Origin: Acidobacteriota bacterium
Lineage (GTDB): Bacteria; Acidobacteriota; JAAYUB01
Length of the DNA stretch: 64,000 bases
Assembly (NCBI GenBank): GCA_029565065.1
Contig: JAKQOW010000027.1
Location: forward strand, 1-64,000
Reading direction: 5' to 3'
Shown: piece after piece, positions 52,833 to 62,074 of the stretch
Position numbering within the stretch: the first letter of the stretch is position 1
Layout: each line of letters begins with the position of its first letter
Notes under the pieces: generated by a model
What the model saw: only the letters and a program-made list of their open reading frames with translations
Told to the model about the DNA's origin: nothing
Database searches by the model: none
Made by a program: the position numbers and the translations under genes

Positions 52833-52981
52833 GTGGCCTCCCTCTGCGGGCCCGGCGTCGGGATTCGCTCTTGGTCCCGGCGGCCGGGCGTGGTATATCT
52901 CCGCATGAATAGACCAACGAGCCGAGCGGAAGGTTCAACGGGTCGACGGCCCGGCGGATGCCGGGGGCGGGAGGAGGTGGC

Positions 52982-53557
52982 ATGGAGATCCGGACACGCG
53001 ATGTGACCGCAGCGCTCTGGCCCGACGTGGAGTCCCTGTTCGGCGCCCGCGGCGCCTGCGGGGGATGCTGGTGCTGGTACTGGCGCCTGGCCAAAGGCGA
53101 GTCGTGGGACGCGGTCAAGGGCGAGCCGGCCCGTCGGCGGCTGCGTCGGGGAATCGCCAACGGCGCGGTCATGGGCGTGCTCGCCTATGCGGATGCCGAA
53201 CCGGTGGGCTGGTGCACCTACGGGCCGCGTCCGTCGTTCGCCCGGTTGGATCGCGCGCCCAGCCTCCGGTGCCCGGACGCCGATGCCGTGTGGTCGGTGC
53301 CGTGCTTTTTCGTCCGGCGGGACCATCGCGGCCGGGGTGTGGCCACCGCGCTGCTGGCCGCCGCGGTGGCGGCGATCCGGGCCCGCGGCGGCCGGATTGT
53401 CGAAGGTTATCCGGTCAAGCCGGCCCGGACCGGCCGTCATGCCGACGCCTTCGCCTGGACGGGGACCCGGGCGCAGTTCGAGCGGGCGGGCTTCGTGTTG
53501 GCGGGCAATCCCGACGGCGGGAAGCAGCGGTACCGGCTCCGGCTGGCCGGCGAGTGA
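52982..53557 (+). CDS. GNAT-family N-acetyltransferase
   Basis: 191 residues from ATG 52982 (GGAGGAGG upstream). The acetyl-CoA signature is RRDHRGRGVATALL, and the fold continues with IRARGGRIVEGYPVKPARTG and FERAGFVLAGNPDGGKQRYR. A cluster of tryptophans and cysteines (GACGGCWCWYWRLAKGE) near the start is typical of a group of GNAT proteins close to this type. The substrate is unknown. A very long ORF on the other strand over this and the next two genes is a shadow of GC-rich codon usage. Confidence 0.88.
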   Translation: MEIRTRDVTAALWPDVESLFGARGACGGCWCWYWRLAKGESWDAVKGEPARRRLRRGIANGAVMGVLAYADAEPVGWCTYGPRPSFARLDRAPSLRCPDADAVWSVPCFFVRRDHRGRGVATALLAAAVAAIRARGGRIVEGYPVKPARTGRHADAFAWTGTRAQFERAGFVLAGNPDGGKQRYRLRLAGE

Positions 53558-53623: not shown

Positions 53624-54523
53624 ATGGCCGACCGAACGTTCTGTATCTGCTGGAACTGGGAACACGACGCGGGCTTCATCCGCCTGCTGGAGGCCGCGTG
53701 CGCCAGCCGGGGGCTGGGCCTGATCCAGGTGACCCCGGCCAACCTGGCCGACAGCATCCGGCAGTTGCGGGAGGGCTGGCTGACCTTCCACGGGTTGCTG
53801 GACCGCGCCTCCGACACCGACGAACGGTTTCTGGAAGTGGTGGAGTGGGCCAGCGACCGCGGCGTCTATCGGATCAACCCGTACGAGCGGGCGCGCCTGC
53901 AGTGGGACAAGGCGGCGGTCCATATCGTGCTGAGCCATGCCACCCACACGCCGCGCACCATCATCCTGCCGCCCTTCGACCGGGTGCCGGAGCTGCCGCC
54001 CCTCGATCTCGCGCCACTCGGCGAGAGTTTCTGCATCAAGCCGGCCCAAGGCGGCGGCGGCGACGGGGTGGTGGTGGGCGCCACCACGCTGGACGAGGTG
54101 GTCGCCAGCCGGCAGGAGTTCGCCGCCGACCGCTACCTGCTGCAGTCCATGGTCCGTCCGGCGGACCTGAACGGCCGGCCCGGCTGGTTCCGCGTGGTCC
54201 ATTTCACCGGTCGCGTGTTTCCGTTCTGGTGGAATCCGGAAACCCATGTCTACGCCCCGGTGACCGCCGAGGAAGAAGCCGGTTTCGGGCTGGGGCCGCT
54301 GCGTTCGGTGTCGGCGTCCATCGCCTGGGTGTGCGGTCTGGAGCTGTTCTCTTCGGAAATTGCCCGGACCCACGACGGCTTGTTTGTGGCAGTCGATTAC
54401 GTCAACGACCCGGTGGACCTGCGCCTCCGGTCGGAGACGCCCGACGGTGTTCCGGACGAGACGGTCGCCGAGCTGGCGGCCGGACTTGCTGATTTGGTTC
54501 GAGGCGGCGGGCCGCCGCTGTAG
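53624..54523 (+). CDS. ATP-grasp-domain protein
   Basis: 299 residues. The middle contains CIKPAQGGGGDGVVVGAT, the glycine-rich ATP-grasp loop preceded by the binding lysine, and further on ADRYLLQSMVRPADL, RVVHFTGRVFPFWW and VAVDYVNDP, the last with possible metal/phosphate residues. The N-terminal third would be the preATP-grasp region. Such proteins ligate carboxylates to amines or act as kinases. No neighbouring peptide precursor is seen, so the role is open. It is 67 bp after the GNAT gene. Confidence 0.78.
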   Translation: MADRTFCICWNWEHDAGFIRLLEAACASRGLGLIQVTPANLADSIRQLREGWLTFHGLLDRASDTDERFLEVVEWASDRGVYRINPYERARLQWDKAAVHIVLSHATHTPRTIILPPFDRVPELPPLDLAPLGESFCIKPAQGGGGDGVVVGATTLDEVVASRQEFAADRYLLQSMVRPADLNGRPGWFRVVHFTGRVFPFWWNPETHVYAPVTAEEEAGFGLGPLRSVSASIAWVCGLELFSSEIARTHDGLFVAVDYVNDPVDLRLRSETPDGVPDETVAELAAGLADLVRGGGPPL

Positions 54524-54613
54524 ATTGGGATGATCCCCCGCGTGCGTGGACGAACATCCCGGCTGAAATTCCGTAAGACAATTTTGTTCTCCAGCATCGA
54601 TGACGAGGTGACC

Positions 54614-56653
54614 ATGCGACCCAAACTGTTCCTCGCGGTGTGGCTGGTGTTGCTGGCGGCGGGAGCCGCCGGCGCCGGCGAGACGCCGCCGTTCGCTTTT
54701 GACCGATACCACGATCCCGAAGTCGTCGCGGCCCGGCTGCATCAACTGGCCCAGGTGCACCCGGACGCGGCACGGGTGCACGCACTGGCGGACAGCCCGG
54801 GCGGGCGGCCGCTCCTGCTGCTGGAGATCGGTCCCGAGACGGCGGCGCCGTCGCACCGGCTGCCGGCGGTGCTGGTGGCGGCCAACCTGGAGGGCAGCGT
54901 CCCCGTGGCCAGCGAAGCCGCCCTGTACCTGGCGCAGCTCCTGCTGGACAAGCCCGAGGCCCGCGGCGACCGCACCTGGTACATCACCCCCCTGGGCAAT
55001 CCCGACGCCGCGGCCCGCTTCTTCCGCCGGCCGCTCGTCGAGGACAACCGGAACGACCGGCCGTTCAACGACGACCAGGACGACCGCATCGATGAGGACG
55101 GGCCCGACGATCTCAACGGCGACGGGCTGATCACCCAGATGCGGGTGCCCGATCCCGCCGGCGAGTGGATCCCGGTGGAAGGCGAACCCCGCGCCCTGCG
55201 CAAGGCGGACTGGTCCAAGGGGGAAAAGGGTCAGTTCAAGCTCTACACCGAGGGCATAGACAACGACGGCGACGGCCGCTACAACGAGGACGGCCCGGGC
55301 GGGGTGGATGTGGGCCTCAACTTCCCCCACCTGTTCAAACCGTTTACACCCACCGGCGGTGCCTGGGCCGGCAGCGAGGCGGAGAGCCACGCGCTCGTGG
55401 CCTTCGCCTTCGCCCATCCGGAGATCGCGCTGGTGGTCACCTTCGGCCGGTCAAGTTTCTGCCTGAACCCGCCCCGCGGCGGCCGGACCGGCACCGCCGA
55501 CTTCAACCGGATCAAGATCCCCGAGCGCATCGCCAAGTGGATCGGCCTCGAGGCGGACAAGACTTACACCATGGCCGAAGTGATGGAAGTCGCCAAGCGC
55601 TTGGCCCCGCCGGGCATGGAGCTCACCGAGGCGATGGTGGCCAGCTTCCTGGGTCTCGGTCCCGTGGTCAATCCGCTCCCGGAGGACCTGAAGTTCTATG
55701 AAACGCTGTCCAAGCAGTGCAACGATTTTTTGAAGGAAAGGAAACTCGATGCCAAGCGCCTCGATCCGCCGGCCGACCGGGACGGCAGCTTCGAGCTGTG
55801 GGCCTATTATCACCTGGGCCGGCCGTCCTTCGCCATGGACTTCTGGACGCTCCCCGTGGTGGAGAAGGCCAAGCCGGCCGGGGCCGACCCGGATGCGCTG
55901 ACACCCGATAAACTGGAAACCATGACCAGCGAGGAGTTCCTGGCTCTGGGCGAGGAAAAAATCACCGCCTTCATCAAGTCATCCGGAGCACCGGCCTCGG
56001 TCCAGCCGGCCATGGTCATCAATGCCGTCAAGGCTGGCATGATGACGCCGAAAAAAATGGCCGAGATGATGAAATCCATGCCCAAGCCGAAAAATGCCGA
56101 AGGTCTCGACACGGAGACAGAAGCCTTGCTGGCTTTCAGCGACAAGACGCTGGGTGGTTCGGGATACGTGGCCTGGCAACCATTCCAACACCCCACCCTC
56201 GGGGCGGTGGAGATCGGCGGCGCTGCGCCTTTCGCTGCCGGAACGCCGCCGCCGGCCCAGATGCTCCAGCTCCTGGAGGGGCAGGTCCCGTGGGTGCTGA
56301 CCCTTGCGGACAAAATGGCACGGATCCGCCTGGCGAAGGTGGAGGTGACGGCGCTCGGCGGCGGCATCCACCAGGTCAAGGCCTGGGTGGAGAACAGCGG
56401 CTATCTGCCCTACACCACCGCGATGGCGCAGCGGAACATCCAGTGCACGCCGGTGGTGTTGGAGCTGAAGGGAGACGGCCTGAAATTCCTGGAGGGGCGC
56501 CCGCGCAGCCTGATCCGGCAGGTCGGCGGTCACGGCGCCGAAACGATCACCTGGCTCGTGCAAGCCGACCGACCCGTCAGCGCCATCATCGCCGCCACCA
56601 CGGCCACGGCGTGGGGCGATGAGACCCGCGTCCAGATCGGAGGTGCCCAATGA
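54614..56653 (+). CDS. Catalytically dead M14-carboxypeptidase homologue, exported
   Basis: 679 residues from ATG 54614 (GAGGTG upstream) with a signal peptide (FLAVWLVLLAAGAAGAGE). It shares the layout and calcium-loop inserts of the next gene: DDRIDEDGPDDLNGDG and EGIDNDGDGRYNEDGPGG. The zinc motif HxxE is replaced: where the next protein has NIHGNE, this one has NLEGSV (E93 and V96). The third ligand region TFHNFGG is TFGRSS, and the catalytic Glu region VGELY is AMDFW. A helical insert (about 360-520) is extra. It is probably a binding or scaffold partner. The last 4 nt overlap the active paralogue. Confidence 0.87.
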   Translation: MRPKLFLAVWLVLLAAGAAGAGETPPFAFDRYHDPEVVAARLHQLAQVHPDAARVHALADSPGGRPLLLLEIGPETAAPSHRLPAVLVAANLEGSVPVASEAALYLAQLLLDKPEARGDRTWYITPLGNPDAAARFFRRPLVEDNRNDRPFNDDQDDRIDEDGPDDLNGDGLITQMRVPDPAGEWIPVEGEPRALRKADWSKGEKGQFKLYTEGIDNDGDGRYNEDGPGGVDVGLNFPHLFKPFTPTGGAWAGSEAESHALVAFAFAHPEIALVVTFGRSSFCLNPPRGGRTGTADFNRIKIPERIAKWIGLEADKTYTMAEVMEVAKRLAPPGMELTEAMVASFLGLGPVVNPLPEDLKFYETLSKQCNDFLKERKLDAKRLDPPADRDGSFELWAYYHLGRPSFAMDFWTLPVVEKAKPAGADPDALTPDKLETMTSEEFLALGEEKITAFIKSSGAPASVQPAMVINAVKAGMMTPKKMAEMMKSMPKPKNAEGLDTETEALLAFSDKTLGGSGYVAWQPFQHPTLGAVEIGGAAPFAAGTPPPAQMLQLLEGQVPWVLTLADKMARIRLAKVEVTALGGGIHQVKAWVENSGYLPYTTAMAQRNIQCTPVVLELKGDGLKFLEGRPRSLIRQVGGHGAETITWLVQADRPVSAIIAATTATAWGDETRVQIGGAQ

Positions 56654-58416
56654 ACCGCATCACCGCAACCGGCCTCTGCCTGATGATCGCTCTGATGCTG
56701 GCCCTTCCCGTCCGGGCGGACGGGGCGCGGACGGCCGTGCCCCTGTCGTTCGACGACTACTATACCTACGAGGAAGTGGGCCGGGCGCTCGAGGCGCTCC
56801 AGCAGGCCTATCCCAGGCTGACCCGGCTCGATGTGGCCGGTCACAGCGACGAAGGGCGGGCCATCTGGTGCCTCACCGTGAACAACCCGGCTACCGGCGC
56901 AGAACTGGAGAAGCCGGCGGTCTACGTGGACGGCAACATCCACGGCAACGAGATCCAGGGCGGCGAGGTGTGCCTGTATCTCCTGAATGAGCTTCTCACC
57001 CGCTACGGCAAGAACCCGGAAATCACCCGGCTCTTGGACACACGCTGTTTCTACGTGGTGCCGGTGGTGAATCCCGACGGTCGGCACCACTTCTTCGCCG
57101 ACCCCGGGAGCCACAGCAACAACCGGAGCCTCCGCTACCCGCTCGACGACGACCGGGACGGGCTCGTGGACGAGGATTATCCCGACGACCTGGACGGGGA
57201 CGGCAACATCTGCACCATGCGCCGGCGCGATCCGTTCGGCACCCATCGCACCCATCCGGAGGATCCCCGTCTGATGGTCCGGGTCAAGCCCGGTGAAAAG
57301 GCTGAATGGGCCTTGCTGGGTTCCGAGGGGATCGACAACGACGGCGACGGCCGGGTCAATGAGGACGCGGAAGGATATATCGACCCGAATCGCAACTGGA
57401 GCTATGACTGGATGCCCGGCTACGTCCAGAGCGGCTCAGGACCTTACCCGTTTGCCGGCCGGGGCCTGCGGGAGCTGGCCGCCTTCATCGCGGCCCGCCC
57501 CAACATCAACATGGCCTGGACGTTCCACAACTTCGGTGGCATGTACCTCCGCGGACCCAGCGCCAAGAGCCAGGGCGAGTATCCGCCTGAGGACGTGGCG
57601 GTCTACGACTACATCGGGAAGCAGGCCGAAAAGATCACGCCCGGTTACCGTTACATGCTGAGCTGGCGGGATCTCTATGAAACCTACGGCGATTCGGGTG
57701 AGTGGCTGGCCATGACCCAGGGCGCCTACGTTCTCGTGGGCGAGCTGTACGCCTCGGAAGAGGAGAACTTCAACAAACCGTCGGCCGAGCGCAAGGTGGA
57801 TCCGGACTACGAGTCCGGCGCCATGTTTGGCGACGATGCCGCCCGGACTCTGGAGCGGCTCCGGTTCAACGACAACCTGGCCGGGGGCGAACTGTACCAG
57901 GCTTGGCGCGCCTTCAAGCACCCGCAGTATGGCGACATCGAGATCGGCGGCTGGGTGAAGATGAGCACCCGCCTGCCGCCCCCCTTCCTGCTTCGGCAGA
58001 TGCTTCACCGGAACGCCGCGGCGGTCCTGTTCTCGGCCAGGCAGACTCCCGAAGTCGGTCTCGAGATCGCCGCCGTGGAGCCGGCGGGCGGCGGCCTGCA
58101 CCGGGTCACGGTCCGACTCAGCAATCCGGCGGCGATGCCGTCCATGACCGCCCACGCCCGCCGAGTGGAGCTTTACCCGCAGGACACGCTCACGCTGGCC
58201 AGCTCGGGTGTGAAAGTGATCGCCGGCGGACGGGTGACCAATCCCGCCTCCGGCGAAGTGGACTTCGTGGATCATCGCCCGGAGGTGCAGTTCCTGACGG
58301 TGCCAGGCTTCAGCCGCGTGGAGCACCAGTTTCTGGTGTCGGGCAAGGGGCAGGCGGTGGTGACGTACACGTCCCGGCACGCAGGCGTGCGGCGGGCGAA
58401 CGTGCAGATTCCGTAA
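56650..58416 (+). CDS. Exported M14-family zinc carboxypeptidase
   Basis: 588 residues. Signal peptide (ATGLCLMIALMLALPVRAD). Zinc ligands H98 and E101 in NIHGNEIQGGE, third ligand H293 in WTFHNFGGM, catalytic Glu E365 in VLVGELYAS: a complete M14 site. Between the first and third ligands lie acidic calcium-type loops (LDDDRDGLVDEDYPDDLDGDG region and EGIDNDGDGRVNEDAEG). A C-terminal beta domain (about 430-588) may bind substrate or anchor. It starts within the stop of the dead paralogue, so equal amounts of the two are expected. Confidence 0.94.
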   Translation: MNRITATGLCLMIALMLALPVRADGARTAVPLSFDDYYTYEEVGRALEALQQAYPRLTRLDVAGHSDEGRAIWCLTVNNPATGAELEKPAVYVDGNIHGNEIQGGEVCLYLLNELLTRYGKNPEITRLLDTRCFYVVPVVNPDGRHHFFADPGSHSNNRSLRYPLDDDRDGLVDEDYPDDLDGDGNICTMRRRDPFGTHRTHPEDPRLMVRVKPGEKAEWALLGSEGIDNDGDGRVNEDAEGYIDPNRNWSYDWMPGYVQSGSGPYPFAGRGLRELAAFIAARPNINMAWTFHNFGGMYLRGPSAKSQGEYPPEDVAVYDYIGKQAEKITPGYRYMLSWRDLYETYGDSGEWLAMTQGAYVLVGELYASEEENFNKPSAERKVDPDYESGAMFGDDAARTLERLRFNDNLAGGELYQAWRAFKHPQYGDIEIGGWVKMSTRLPPPFLLRQMLHRNAAAVLFSARQTPEVGLEIAAVEPAGGGLHRVTVRLSNPAAMPSMTAHARRVELYPQDTLTLASSGVKVIAGGRVTNPASGEVDFVDHRPEVQFLTVPGFSRVEHQFLVSGKGQAVVTYTSRHAGVRRANVQIP

Positions 58417-58462: not shown

Positions 58463-60370
58463 TCAGGGCAATTCCAGGTAGTACCAGATGATCTTCCAGG
58501 CGCCGCCCTCCCGCCGCCAGACCAGATAGGTGACGGCCGGTTGGTCGCCGGCCACCTTCAGCGAGAAGGACGTGCCGAAATAATTTCCATAGGCAAGACC
58601 GCCGGGCGGGGGCTCGCGGTGCAGGCCCTGCTCGATCGGTTGGCTGCAATCGAAGGCGTCCCCATAATGGTCCGGGATGCACAGGATGGTGAAAGCCTTC
58701 ATGTGGTCGTGCCGCACCAATTGGACGGCGCGGTTGGCCGGTGTGGAAGCCCGCAAAGCGTCCTCCAGGCGGGCCACCGCGCCCGTCGTTTCGCTCACCC
58801 GCGCCATGCTGGCACGGATGAAGGCGGCGAAAGCCTCCGGTGAATCCATCGGCGGGGTGCCTTCCGGCAGGAAGTAGTTCAGGCAGGGGAAGGTCCGGGG
58901 CGCGATGTGGCCCAGGCTCCGGTCGAAATCCCGGTCCACGAACCAGGCGGTGAAGAAGTCGGTGGCGGCCGCGACCATCCCGGGATCGCCGGCGACGGGC
59001 GCTGGTGTCGCGACGGGAGCTTCATCGGGGCGCAGGTCCGGCACCTCCGGCTGCGGCGCATCGTCCGGCTCGGTATTGAACGCGACGATCTGCCAGTATT
59101 TCTTTTCTTTGGCCCACAGCAGGTAAATGGTGGCGCCCCGCCGGGAGGGGGTGGAAACGTAGAACGCCGATGCATAGAACCGGCCATACTGTTCGTCGGC
59201 CTGCGGCGTGGCCCGGTTCGGCGGCAGCCGGAGTCCGTCTTCGCAGCGGATGGCGCTGCCGAGCGCGGTCGGAACCCGATACAGGGAGAACTCGTGCTGG
59301 TCCTCGTTCTTGACCAGTTGCAGGCGGGGATTGTTCAAGGGAACAGCCTTGACCACTCCCTCCAGGCTGGTGATTTTACCGATGACCCGGGTTGCCTCCG
59401 CCATGGATTTCAAGAGGCGGAATGGGACCATACCACGATCCACGGGTTGACCCGGTTCGTCGGGCGGATAGCAAGCGTAGGCGGAGTTCGAAAAATACGC
59501 CATAGACAGTTCCGGCCGCTGCTCCACCAGCCAGGCGGACAGGAAATCCTTCACCGCCACCCGGATCTTCTCCCGGCCGGCGCGCGGCACTTTGGGGATG
59601 ATCGTGTCGCCGGTGTCCTCACCGGCCGCTCCCAGGAACGGCAGACCGAAGATGTTCCGCCACCAGTCAGTCAGGCCTGACCACCGCTCGTTGTGGCGGT
59701 TTGAATTGTCGCCGGCGCGGACGTCGGAGTTGGCGGCGGAGAGGTGGCCGTTGAGGAGGGCCGTGGGGAACTTGGACGAGCGGTAATCCACGTCGATGTC
59801 CGCGCGGTGACCGTCCGCCGAGACCGAAATCTGGATGGACGGCACGCCACCCTGCTGGCGGAAGCTCTGCGGGTAGCCTTTGTGAAACGTGACATTGTCC
59901 GGACCGCGCTTGAATTCCCGACAGCGGTGCAGGATGTCCAAGGCGTCGGGGCGCAGCCGCGCGTACATGCGGAATTGCAAGTCTCCTCCGACGCCCGGCA
60001 TCTGACCCCTCACGGTCTCCATGTGAAGAACCAGTTCCAAGGCGTTTCCCATCGGGGCGCCCGACTCGTCGCTCAAGGAGGTGTTGAGCAATGCGTGGGT
60101 GATGGCCTCAAAGGTGGCTCGGTTGGAGATAGACACGCGCTCGTAGATTTCTTCCGTCGGAGGGAGCGTCTTCCCGGTCAATTGAATGAACCGCTCAAGC
60201 CAGTCGTTCAGCAAGCGCTGCTGGGCGGGTGCCAAGTCGGCATAGCGGCCGCTGAACTGGAACGTCGGGCCGGACTGTCCCGCGGGCGCGTCAGAAGGTA
60301 TGGCTGTGGCTGCTGTGCCGATCAAGACCAGTGAAAACATCCAGCCGACCATGCGGGACCTGCTGACCAT
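58463..60370 (-). CDS. Secreted protein with two homologous C-terminal domains
   Basis: 635 residues from ATG 60370 (AGGAGG 6 nt before; a GTG two codons upstream abuts it). A signal peptide (MFSLVLIGTAATAIPSDA) is followed by an N-terminal domain (about 30-270) of unknown family with SGRYADLAPAQQRLLNDW and SISVSADGHRADIDVDYRSS. Then come two similar domains: AVKDFLSAWLVEQRPELSMA...ACYPP and AATDFFTAWFVDRDFDRSLG...CLNYF, each ending in strands such as TIYLLWAKEKKYWQIVAF and VTYLVWRREGGAWKIIWY. I do not recognise either family. Convergent with the M14 genes. Confidence 0.72.
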   Translation of the reverse strand: MVSRSRMVGWMFSLVLIGTAATAIPSDAPAGQSGPTFQFSGRYADLAPAQQRLLNDWLERFIQLTGKTLPPTEEIYERVSISNRATFEAITHALLNTSLSDESGAPMGNALELVLHMETVRGQMPGVGGDLQFRMYARLRPDALDILHRCREFKRGPDNVTFHKGYPQSFRQQGGVPSIQISVSADGHRADIDVDYRSSKFPTALLNGHLSAANSDVRAGDNSNRHNERWSGLTDWWRNIFGLPFLGAAGEDTGDTIIPKVPRAGREKIRVAVKDFLSAWLVEQRPELSMAYFSNSAYACYPPDEPGQPVDRGMVPFRLLKSMAEATRVIGKITSLEGVVKAVPLNNPRLQLVKNEDQHEFSLYRVPTALGSAIRCEDGLRLPPNRATPQADEQYGRFYASAFYVSTPSRRGATIYLLWAKEKKYWQIVAFNTEPDDAPQPEVPDLRPDEAPVATPAPVAGDPGMVAAATDFFTAWFVDRDFDRSLGHIAPRTFPCLNYFLPEGTPPMDSPEAFAAFIRASMARVSETTGAVARLEDALRASTPANRAVQLVRHDHMKAFTILCIPDHYGDAFDCSQPIEQGLHREPPPGGLAYGNYFGTSFSLKVAGDQPAVTYLVWRREGGAWKIIWYYLELP

Positions 60371-60455
60371 GACCACCTCCTCACGATCTTTCGAGAACTT
60401 CTGAATGAAAGGCAGAATACTACGATAGCGGCCTCGTTTTCAAAGGCTGAACACT

Positions 60456-61649
60456 TCAGCGCGGGACCACCCAGAGGTTGTCCTCGAGCTCCAGCCGGAC
60501 GTCGTCGAGCCAGACGGCCTGTCCGGCGCCGCCGGGCCGGAAATCAGCCACGATGTCCACGTGCTGGGCGGAGGTGTTGCAGGCGCCCTGCCGGCTCAGC
60601 TCCTCCAGCCGGGCCTTCCCCTCCGGCGAGTCGGGGTCGTCCACGTAGCTTTGCTTATAGCTGCTCCCGATGGCGATGTGCAGGGTGCCGCCCACCTTTT
60701 CCACAAACAACGGATGCTTCAGGGCTCGTTCCAGGCCGTTGTTCATGCCCAGCGCCACCTCGCCGAGCCGGTGGGATCCATCGTCGGTTTCGATGATGCC
60801 GCGCAGCGTCTCCAGCCCCTCCTCAGCTGCGTACTCGCAGATCCGGCCGGCCTCCAGCCGGAGATAGATGCCGCGGATGGTCGCACCCGAGTACAGCACC
60901 GGCAGATCGAGATAAATCTCGCCGGCCACCGAGTTGGCGTCGGGGCTGGTGTAGACTTCGCCGTCGGGGAAATTGCGCTTGCCGGTGCACTTGATGATGC
61001 GTTGGCCGGCAATGGACATGCCCAGCTCCAGGGTCCGGCCCGTCCGGGGGCAGGCGGTGAGGATGCGCACGTGCCGGGTTTGGGACATCAATCGGTAGAT
61101 GTCCTCTTCGACCGCTTCGAGCAACCGGGGATCCGTGACCGATGCCCGCACGATCACCCGGGTGTACTCCTCGAGCGTCAGCCCCTCCAGATCGGCAAAA
61201 CCCTGGGTGGGAAACAGCGTGAGCAGCCACGGTTTGGCCAGCCGGATGTTCTTGAACGGCTCGTCGGCACGGACGATCGCCTTGATCCCCGCTTCGGGCA
61301 GGTTGGCGTAGAGGTCGGGCCGCTCTGCGCCAAGAATTTCGATGTACTTGGTCATGGCCTCGTACCGCCGGCGGTGCCACTCGGGGACGCGGGCGATCTG
61401 ATCGGGGGCGCCGAATCGTGCCATGGCGGCGCCCCACACCCGGCCGCGGTCGTTGTCGGGCGGCACCAGGCAGAGATCGGCGACGGCCCCGGCGGTGACG
61501 ATCTTGTCCTGCAGTGCGGCCATCAGCGGCCAGGTGATCGGCTCGCCTTTGACCATGACGACGTCGTCAGGTTCGATACCATCCAGCGAATAATCCAGCA
61601 GATAACCAGCCCAGGTGTTCAGATCCCGGGCGGAGATGGCGGGGTGCAT
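60456..61649 (-). CDS. M29-family aminopeptidase
   Basis: 397 residues from ATG 61649 (AGGAGG 4 nt before). The metal-binding part of the M29 (thermophilic aminopeptidase) family is visible: NFPDGEVYTSPDANSVAGEI, the EVALGMN stretch, GTLHIAIGSSYKQS and HVDIVADF, giving the Glu, His, Tyr and Asp ligands expected. It removes N-terminal residues with two divalent ions. Cytoplasmic by sequence (no signal). It is followed by a 149-bp gap without a gene. Confidence 0.92.
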   Translation of the reverse strand: MHPAISARDLNTWAGYLLDYSLDGIEPDDVVMVKGEPITWPLMAALQDKIVTAGAVADLCLVPPDNDRGRVWGAAMARFGAPDQIARVPEWHRRRYEAMTKYIEILGAERPDLYANLPEAGIKAIVRADEPFKNIRLAKPWLLTLFPTQGFADLEGLTLEEYTRVIVRASVTDPRLLEAVEEDIYRLMSQTRHVRILTACPRTGRTLELGMSIAGQRIIKCTGKRNFPDGEVYTSPDANSVAGEIYLDLPVLYSGATIRGIYLRLEAGRICEYAAEEGLETLRGIIETDDGSHRLGEVALGMNNGLERALKHPLFVEKVGGTLHIAIGSSYKQSYVDDPDSPEGKARLEELSRQGACNTSAQHVDIVADFRPGGAGQAVWLDDVRLELEDNLWVVPR

Positions 61650-61798
61650 ACGACCTCCTGTTGTCGTCGATTCAGCGGCGGTGCGGAAACCATTATACCG
61701 CTCGGCGGACGCCGTGCCAATCGCACCCCGGGCGGCGGCGAGCCGGAAATGGTTCCCGGTGTCGGGAGCCCCTGTAGTATGTGCGGATCCCGACGCGA

Positions 61799-62074
61799 TC
61801 AGAGCCGGTCGGATTTGGCCGTGTTGATCCACCCGGCGTCCGACTGGATGTCGGTTTTGTAAACCACCAGATCGGCGTCCCACTGGCTGTCGGTGAAATG
61901 GACGATCCGGTCGGCGTCGCTCTGGATGTCGGTGTAGCACCAGACGGCGCTTGTGGTGGCGTCCCACGGGCTGGTGGTCTCAAAAACAGCTAGGTCGGCC
62001 TCGGAGCGGATGTCGGTCACAAAGACCTTCAGGTTGGCTTCTGATGCGATGTCGGTCCGGAACAGTTTTGGCAT
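61799..62074 (-). CDS. Small 13-residue-repeat protein (DUF6150-like)
   Basis: 91 residues from ATG 62074 (GGAGG upstream). After MPKLFR it is almost entirely repeats of 13 residues on the pattern TDIxSxAxLxVFx: TDIASEANLKVFV, TDIRSEADLAVFE, a 15-residue divergent unit, TDIQSDADRIVHF, TDSQWDADLVVYK and TDIQSDAGWINTA. The periodic strand-turn pattern implies a small beta-solenoid or sheet. It resembles DUF6150-type proteins by memory. No signal peptide. The nearby gap 62075-62240 holds no gene. Confidence 0.78.
   Translation of the reverse strand: MPKLFRTDIASEANLKVFVTDIRSEADLAVFETTSPWDATTSAVWCYTDIQSDADRIVHFTDSQWDADLVVYKTDIQSDAGWINTAKSDRL

Follow-up and report, generated by a model that had tools for sequence, protein, structure and literature searches.

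Predicted dead and live M14 carboxypeptidases encoded as a conserved two-gene unit in two bacterial phyla

Bacterial M16B peptidases are encoded in two-gene operons that pair a dead with a live subunit (PMC11266112, PMC12731061). The gene pair described here, A and B, resembles these systems (SPH2681/SPH2682, TTHA1264/TTHA1265 and AlbF/AlbE, as well as mitochondrial MPP alpha/beta) in that homologous genes for a dead and a live metallopeptidase stand next to each other in a conserved order, and in that the dead subunit has no zinc motif and yet is kept. The fold and clan are different: M16B proteins belong to M16 and are endopeptidases with an inverted HxxEH motif, whereas A and B both belong to M14 and have neither the M16 fold nor HxxEH, making the pair analogous to M16B rather than a member of it. 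Furthermore, the M16B heterodimer is a physical one whose structure has been solved, whereas for A and B we infer one.

Within M14, domain III of carboxypeptidase D is, like A, a dead M14 domain beside live M14 domains, with nearly all of its active-site residues replaced, and has been proposed to help or present substrates. However, carboxypeptidase D is an animal protein, a single polypeptide with transthyretin-like domains, whereas A and B are products of two bacterial genes and have acidic loops and another C-terminal beta domain. AEBP1, CPXM1, CPXM2 and Ecm14 share with A a secreted M14 fold without catalysis, but they are encoded by eukaryotic single genes with no paired live M14 gene. 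Some of the zinc site is still present in them (table in PMC11266112), and the M14 pseudopeptidases named in that review are all eukaryotic. B, for its part, has the fold and full catalytic set of bovine carboxypeptidase A and Thermoactinomyces carboxypeptidase T, from which it differs by long acidic inserts between the NPDG strand and the Asn-Arg motif, by a C-terminal beta domain with an EIGG motif and by its tandem partner A. In the open-access literature searched we found neither a bacterial M14 pseudopeptidase tied obligately to a live M14 protein nor anything on point for the M14 proteins of Aminicenantes. The parts are of known kinds; what seems new is their combination, a bacterial M14 pseudopeptidase and a live M14 protein as an obligate two-gene unit.

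The pair lies on the forward strand of the window, that is, the whole 64,000-nucleotide stretch of Acidobacteriota DNA that was analysed. Its layout is as follows:

54605..54610, + strand: GAGGTG, Shine-Dalgarno-like sequence for gene A (sequence)
54614..56653, + strand: gene A, probably secreted M14-fold pseudopeptidase, 679 aa (ORF and translation, Pfam, AlphaFold, homologue alignment)
56639..56645, + strand: GGAGGTG, Shine-Dalgarno-like sequence for gene B, within the 3' end of gene A (sequence)
56650..56653, + strand: ATGA, start of gene B overlapping the stop of gene A (sequence)
56650..58416, + strand: gene B, probably secreted M14 zinc carboxypeptidase with a complete active site, 588 aa (ORF and translation, Pfam, AlphaFold, homologue alignment)

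A preliminary description of the locus had reported an overlapping gene pair, and its coordinates, its frames and the ATGA at 56650-56653 all proved correct. It had also predicted from the ATGA that the two proteins would be made in equal amounts. This prediction did not hold: gene B has a Shine-Dalgarno-like sequence of its own, and the 4-nt overlap is found in only 34 of 74 pairs, the other stop-to-start distances being mostly 1-45 nt and reaching about 90, with most below 20. Since a separate ribosome-binding sequence for gene B lies within the last part of gene A, the overlap suggests translational coupling rather than equal synthesis. Both window proteins begin with a hydrophobic, signal-like N-terminus, as do 58 of 63 A and 62 of 67 B homologue sequences, and both would be exported by means of these signal sequences.

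Pfam Peptidase_M14 (PF00246) matched both proteins above the cut-off, B with an E-value of 5.9e-39 and A, over its N-terminal part only, with 6.9e-11; an NCBIfam search gave no match for either. A and B are 36% identical over 286 aa of the catalytic part (E=3e-36), and a second aligned block (123 aa, 34% identity) covers the C-terminal beta domain with the conserved EIGG motif. Among PDB sequences, B matched carboxypeptidases D, M, A, B and T, and the matches of A were weak. Genome annotation is prone to label both genes as M14 peptidases, although only one of them can be. The active-site positions are:

54890..54901, + strand: A, lost H-x-x-E motif, reading E93-G-S-V96 (alignments)
55445..55447, + strand: A, Gly278 where the third zinc ligand, His, is expected (alignments)
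55838..55840, + strand: A, Asp409 where the catalytic Glu is expected (alignments; end of strand 405-408 in the model)
56941..56952, + strand: B, zinc motif H98-G-N-E101 (75/75 homologues)
57526..57528, + strand: B, third zinc ligand His293 (75/75 homologues)
57742..57744, + strand: B, catalytic Glu365 (75/75 homologues)

In B, H98-x-x-E101, H293, E365, N247-R248 and Y343 correspond to the zinc ligands, catalytic base and carboxylate site of carboxypeptidase A. The HxxE motif, the His, the Glu, the Tyr and the Asn-Arg pair are retained in 75/75 B proteins, and the near-invariant columns of B include this whole set besides the acidic loops. The AlphaFold model of B (pLDDT 89.5) matched carboxypeptidases in Foldseek with a TM-score of up to 0.80 (on the target). 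By Pfam match and fold as well as by its residue set B is an M14 metallocarboxypeptidase, and its residues are those of a live one.

The alignments bear out all four replacements originally described for A (H98 of B to E93, E101 to V96, H293 to G278 and E365 to D409) and add two that had been missed: the substrate-carboxylate pair N247-R248 is lost in window A (G234-L235), and Y343 is likewise replaced. Window A has no His at any ligand position. When 82 A and 75 B proteins were aligned, not one canonical zinc ligand was in place in any A protein (0/82), the third-ligand position being Gly, Ser or Asp in every one of them. The dead residue state is thus found in 82/82 A versus 0/75 B homologues, which is more than chance. 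Elsewhere in the site the A proteins vary. His occupies the Glu72 position in 42 of 82, mostly with Glu at the His69 position (E-x-x-H for H-x-x-E), and at the R145 position of the carboxylate-binding Asn-Arg there is Arg in 41 and Lys in 10. An Arg aligns near R127 in 82/82 and Asp stands at the Glu270 position in 46/82, where the placement of R127 and of the catalytic Glu comes from sequence and predicted secondary structure, not from superposed coordinates. Many of the E-x-x-H proteins also retain the Asn-Arg pair; the window clade has neither. Homologues such as L093, L121 and L162 read E-x-x-H, or another residue and then H, as if the ligands had been swapped.

Loss of the site has not been accompanied by any predicted loss of the fold. 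An AlphaFold2 model of A, built with 75 A sequences, reached a mean pLDDT of 89.2 and a pTM of 0.84 and shows a complete M14 catalytic domain followed by the C-terminal beta domain; its best PDB matches are carboxypeptidases (Foldseek E 5e-12 to carboxypeptidase A4). A has the M14 fold and kinship and lacks the zinc ligands and the catalytic Glu. As an M14 homologue without catalytic residues that is conserved as a gene, A classes as an M14 pseudopeptidase, and judged from these residues none of the known M14 chemistry is open to it.

Both proteins also carry three acidic loops:

55067..55099, + strand: A loop 1, residues 152-162 (D154 and D156 in 82/82)
55109..55129, + strand: A loop 2, residues 166-172 (alignments)
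55259..55291, + strand: A loop 3, residues 216-226 (D216, D218, D220, E225 and D226 in 82/82)
57145..57177, + strand: B loop 1, residues 166-176 (alignments)
57187..57207, + strand: B loop 2, residues 180-186 (alignments)
57334..57366, + strand: B loop 3, residues 229-239 (alignments)

All three loops were found in A and in B, in agreement with their claimed retention in both. Loop 3 reads D-N-D-G-D-G..N-E-D in A and B, a D-x-D-x-D-G motif with a downstream acid, and is near invariant; loop 1 of A is NDDQDDRIDED, in which D157 takes the place of the G of D-x-D-x-D-G. The near-invariant columns of A are chiefly in these loops (D154, D156, E161, D166, D216, D218, D220, E225 and D226). Their pattern suggests that the loops probably bind calcium; a Pfam search of A and B matched no calcium-loop family of the EF-hand, dockerin or thrombospondin type 3 kind. 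Live relatives encoded by single genes have the loops too, so these characterise the family and do not mark a dead role. Their constancy in A implies that A must stay folded there, and does not explain what A does.

To see how the pair is distributed, we surveyed 396 Acidobacteriota genomes, searching them with A and then with B and reading out the loci, together with 296 genomes from a second phylum, that of a Bacteroidales MAG; the sample covers these two phyla and consists mostly of draft MAGs. About 75 A-B loci were found across both phyla. In Acidobacteriota there were about 55, with A directly before B, and in the second phylum 29 genomes matched and 20/20 loci read had a dead A followed by a live B. 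Gene order and strand were constant in every locus, and no fusion of A and B in one frame was seen among the loci read. An unpaired A (L098, L103, L110, L115, L127) or B (L129, L176, L179) always lay at a contig end; in the genomes of L176 and L179, the A gene sits at the end of another contig. A is, in this sample, inseparable from B. Genomes that at first seemed to hold B only were rejected, as all of them turned out to be contig ends or live single-gene relatives (H-S/A/G-G-E types), and the archaeal locus L020, considered as a pair from a third phylum, turned out to be a weak M14 relative that is live, and not the pair. Some genomes (G072, G169, G215, G263 and G380) hold two diverged A-B pairs at separate places.

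In a first tree, A formed one clade (support 100) and B another (99), and both clades persisted when the catalytic columns were removed and the second phylum was added (99 for A, 96 for B). The simplest reading of these trees is that the zinc site of A was lost once, early. A probably lost its activity first and later moved further away from substrate binding, still paired with B. Rooting the descent of A from a live first gene by means of an outgroup ran into outgroup branches that are too long to root. Distances among A proteins and among B proteins were correlated (r=0.95 over 54 pairs), with mirrored branching and A evolving about 1.4x faster. Such a correlation is expected for genes inherited together: it indicates that partners have not been exchanged and is no sign of contact, and the mirrored branching may reflect joint inheritance alone.

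Tandem M14 pairs in which both genes are live occur at L142 (3820-7902), L143 (2045-6064) and L178 (1-3635), the first gene reading CGATHGNE or CGSTHGNE and the second DGAIHGNE. In the first tree the B clade has the second gene of these pairs as its sister, and the first gene branches beside the A clade. On this unrooted tree, the dead/live arrangement may thus go back to a pair of live genes.

Among close relatives, dN/dS (NG86) was 0.08-0.18 for A and 0.05-0.14 for B; values for the window against G016 were saturated at that larger distance and were left out. This ratio had been proposed as a check on the dead paralogue, and it places A under purifying selection. Decay of the first gene in relatives had been named as evidence against a selected role, and only two broken A genes were found, both in draft assemblies where sequencing error is possible: L085 (G021) has an in-frame TAG in A and a truncated B as well, and in L114 (G169) A is broken while a second, intact pair is present in the genome. 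The preliminary description had argued for a selected non-catalytic role from the residue loss together with the retained loops. The role itself is upheld, as A is conserved, under purifying selection, folded by prediction, paired with B and dead in all homologues, but the loops do not serve as evidence for it because live relatives share them.

We consider it probable, with some reserve, that A is a catalytically dead M14 pseudopeptidase serving as the obligate partner of the live carboxypeptidase B. Made from one two-gene unit and exported through their N-terminal signal sequences, A and B would most likely assemble outside the cytoplasm as a heteromeric carboxypeptidase. B would cut, and A would shape or gate the substrate entrance, position the substrate or stabilise B. 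The acidic, probably calcium-binding loops would hold the family's loops on the substrate side rigid in A as well as in B, and may contribute to the A-B contact. Export, the physical complex, the handling of substrate by A and the binding of calcium are presumed in this scheme. The constant pairing, the residue split between A and B, the two clades, the dN/dS values, the predicted fold of A, the signal-like N-termini and the precedents described above all support the partner role, and the in-frame stops in the A genes of L085 and L114 count against it. That a dead gene has been kept by selection, always ahead of the live gene, in at least two phyla suggests a working partner.

Obligate adjacency would also fit an inhibitor, a protein that helps in folding or export, or a peptide binder acting in the same process without binding B. 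In the first two cases A would not be a stable subunit but a regulator dedicated to B, either blocking its cleft until removed or assisting its folding or export. Consistent with this explanation, gene A stands ahead of gene B at every locus and is translated before it, and the obligate pairing resembles that of enzyme-inhibitor or chaperone pairs. However, A has the full M14 catalytic fold plus a C-terminal beta domain and is far larger than M14 prodomains or protein inhibitors, and its conserved columns lie mostly in the acidic loops and not in a tail-like segment. We therefore regard a regulator as unlikely, if the strongest of the alternatives.

Somewhat less likely again is an independent binder of peptide C-termini that serves the same process as B, uptake or digestion, but makes no contact with it. 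In favour of it, the carboxylate-binding Asn-Arg is kept in many A homologues and the Arg near R127 in all 82, but Asn-Arg has been lost in window A and its clade (G234-L235), which is still paired with B. C-terminus binding thus cannot be the general role of A.

It is quite improbable that A is some other kind of enzyme, built around a different metal or active site. A rebuilt site is conceivable in the half or so of A proteins with E-x-x-H and in those with Asp at the Glu270 position, but the third ligand is Gly, Ser or Asp throughout, and A proteins as a whole have no invariant polar set, their constant columns being mainly acidic loops, glycines and prolines. With E93, V96, G278 and D409 in these places, another residue set forming an active site in window A is unlikely. 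Finally, a decaying pseudogene or annotation artefact, to which the faster evolution of A and the two in-frame stops might point, is refuted by the dN/dS values well below 1 and by the single ancient origin in two phyla, together with full-length frames in about 80 homologues and a confident fold, and has a negligible chance of being correct.

Taken together with the M16B systems, the partner role suggests repeated origins of dead/live peptidase pairs, in folds unrelated to each other. We put at about even the chances of the fuller proposal, namely that A-B is a dedicated dead/live heteromeric M14 carboxypeptidase, independent of M16B and common to two phyla, with A the first bacterial M14 pseudopeptidase to have an assigned role. 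With dozens of homologous pairs in bacteria and products that are probably soluble and secreted, the role of a dead carboxypeptidase becomes open to ordinary co-expression.

When the loci were compared, no neighbour other than A and B themselves was conserved across groups. Neighbours were rejected as a general clue to function, because they are shared by close relatives only and their types differ by clade (sortilin-like beta-propeller, tricorn-like protease, glutamyl-tRNA synthetase). In the window, a gene for a 299-aa protein with no Pfam match (53624-54523, + strand) lies just upstream of A, is not conserved beside the pair elsewhere and adjoins a GNAT acetyltransferase gene (52958-53557). 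Downstream of the pair, a reading frame on the opposite strand (58463-60376, - strand), without a Pfam match, is followed 2 kb beyond the pair by an M29 aminopeptidase gene on the same opposite strand (60459-61967, - strand; Pfam 1.1e-41).
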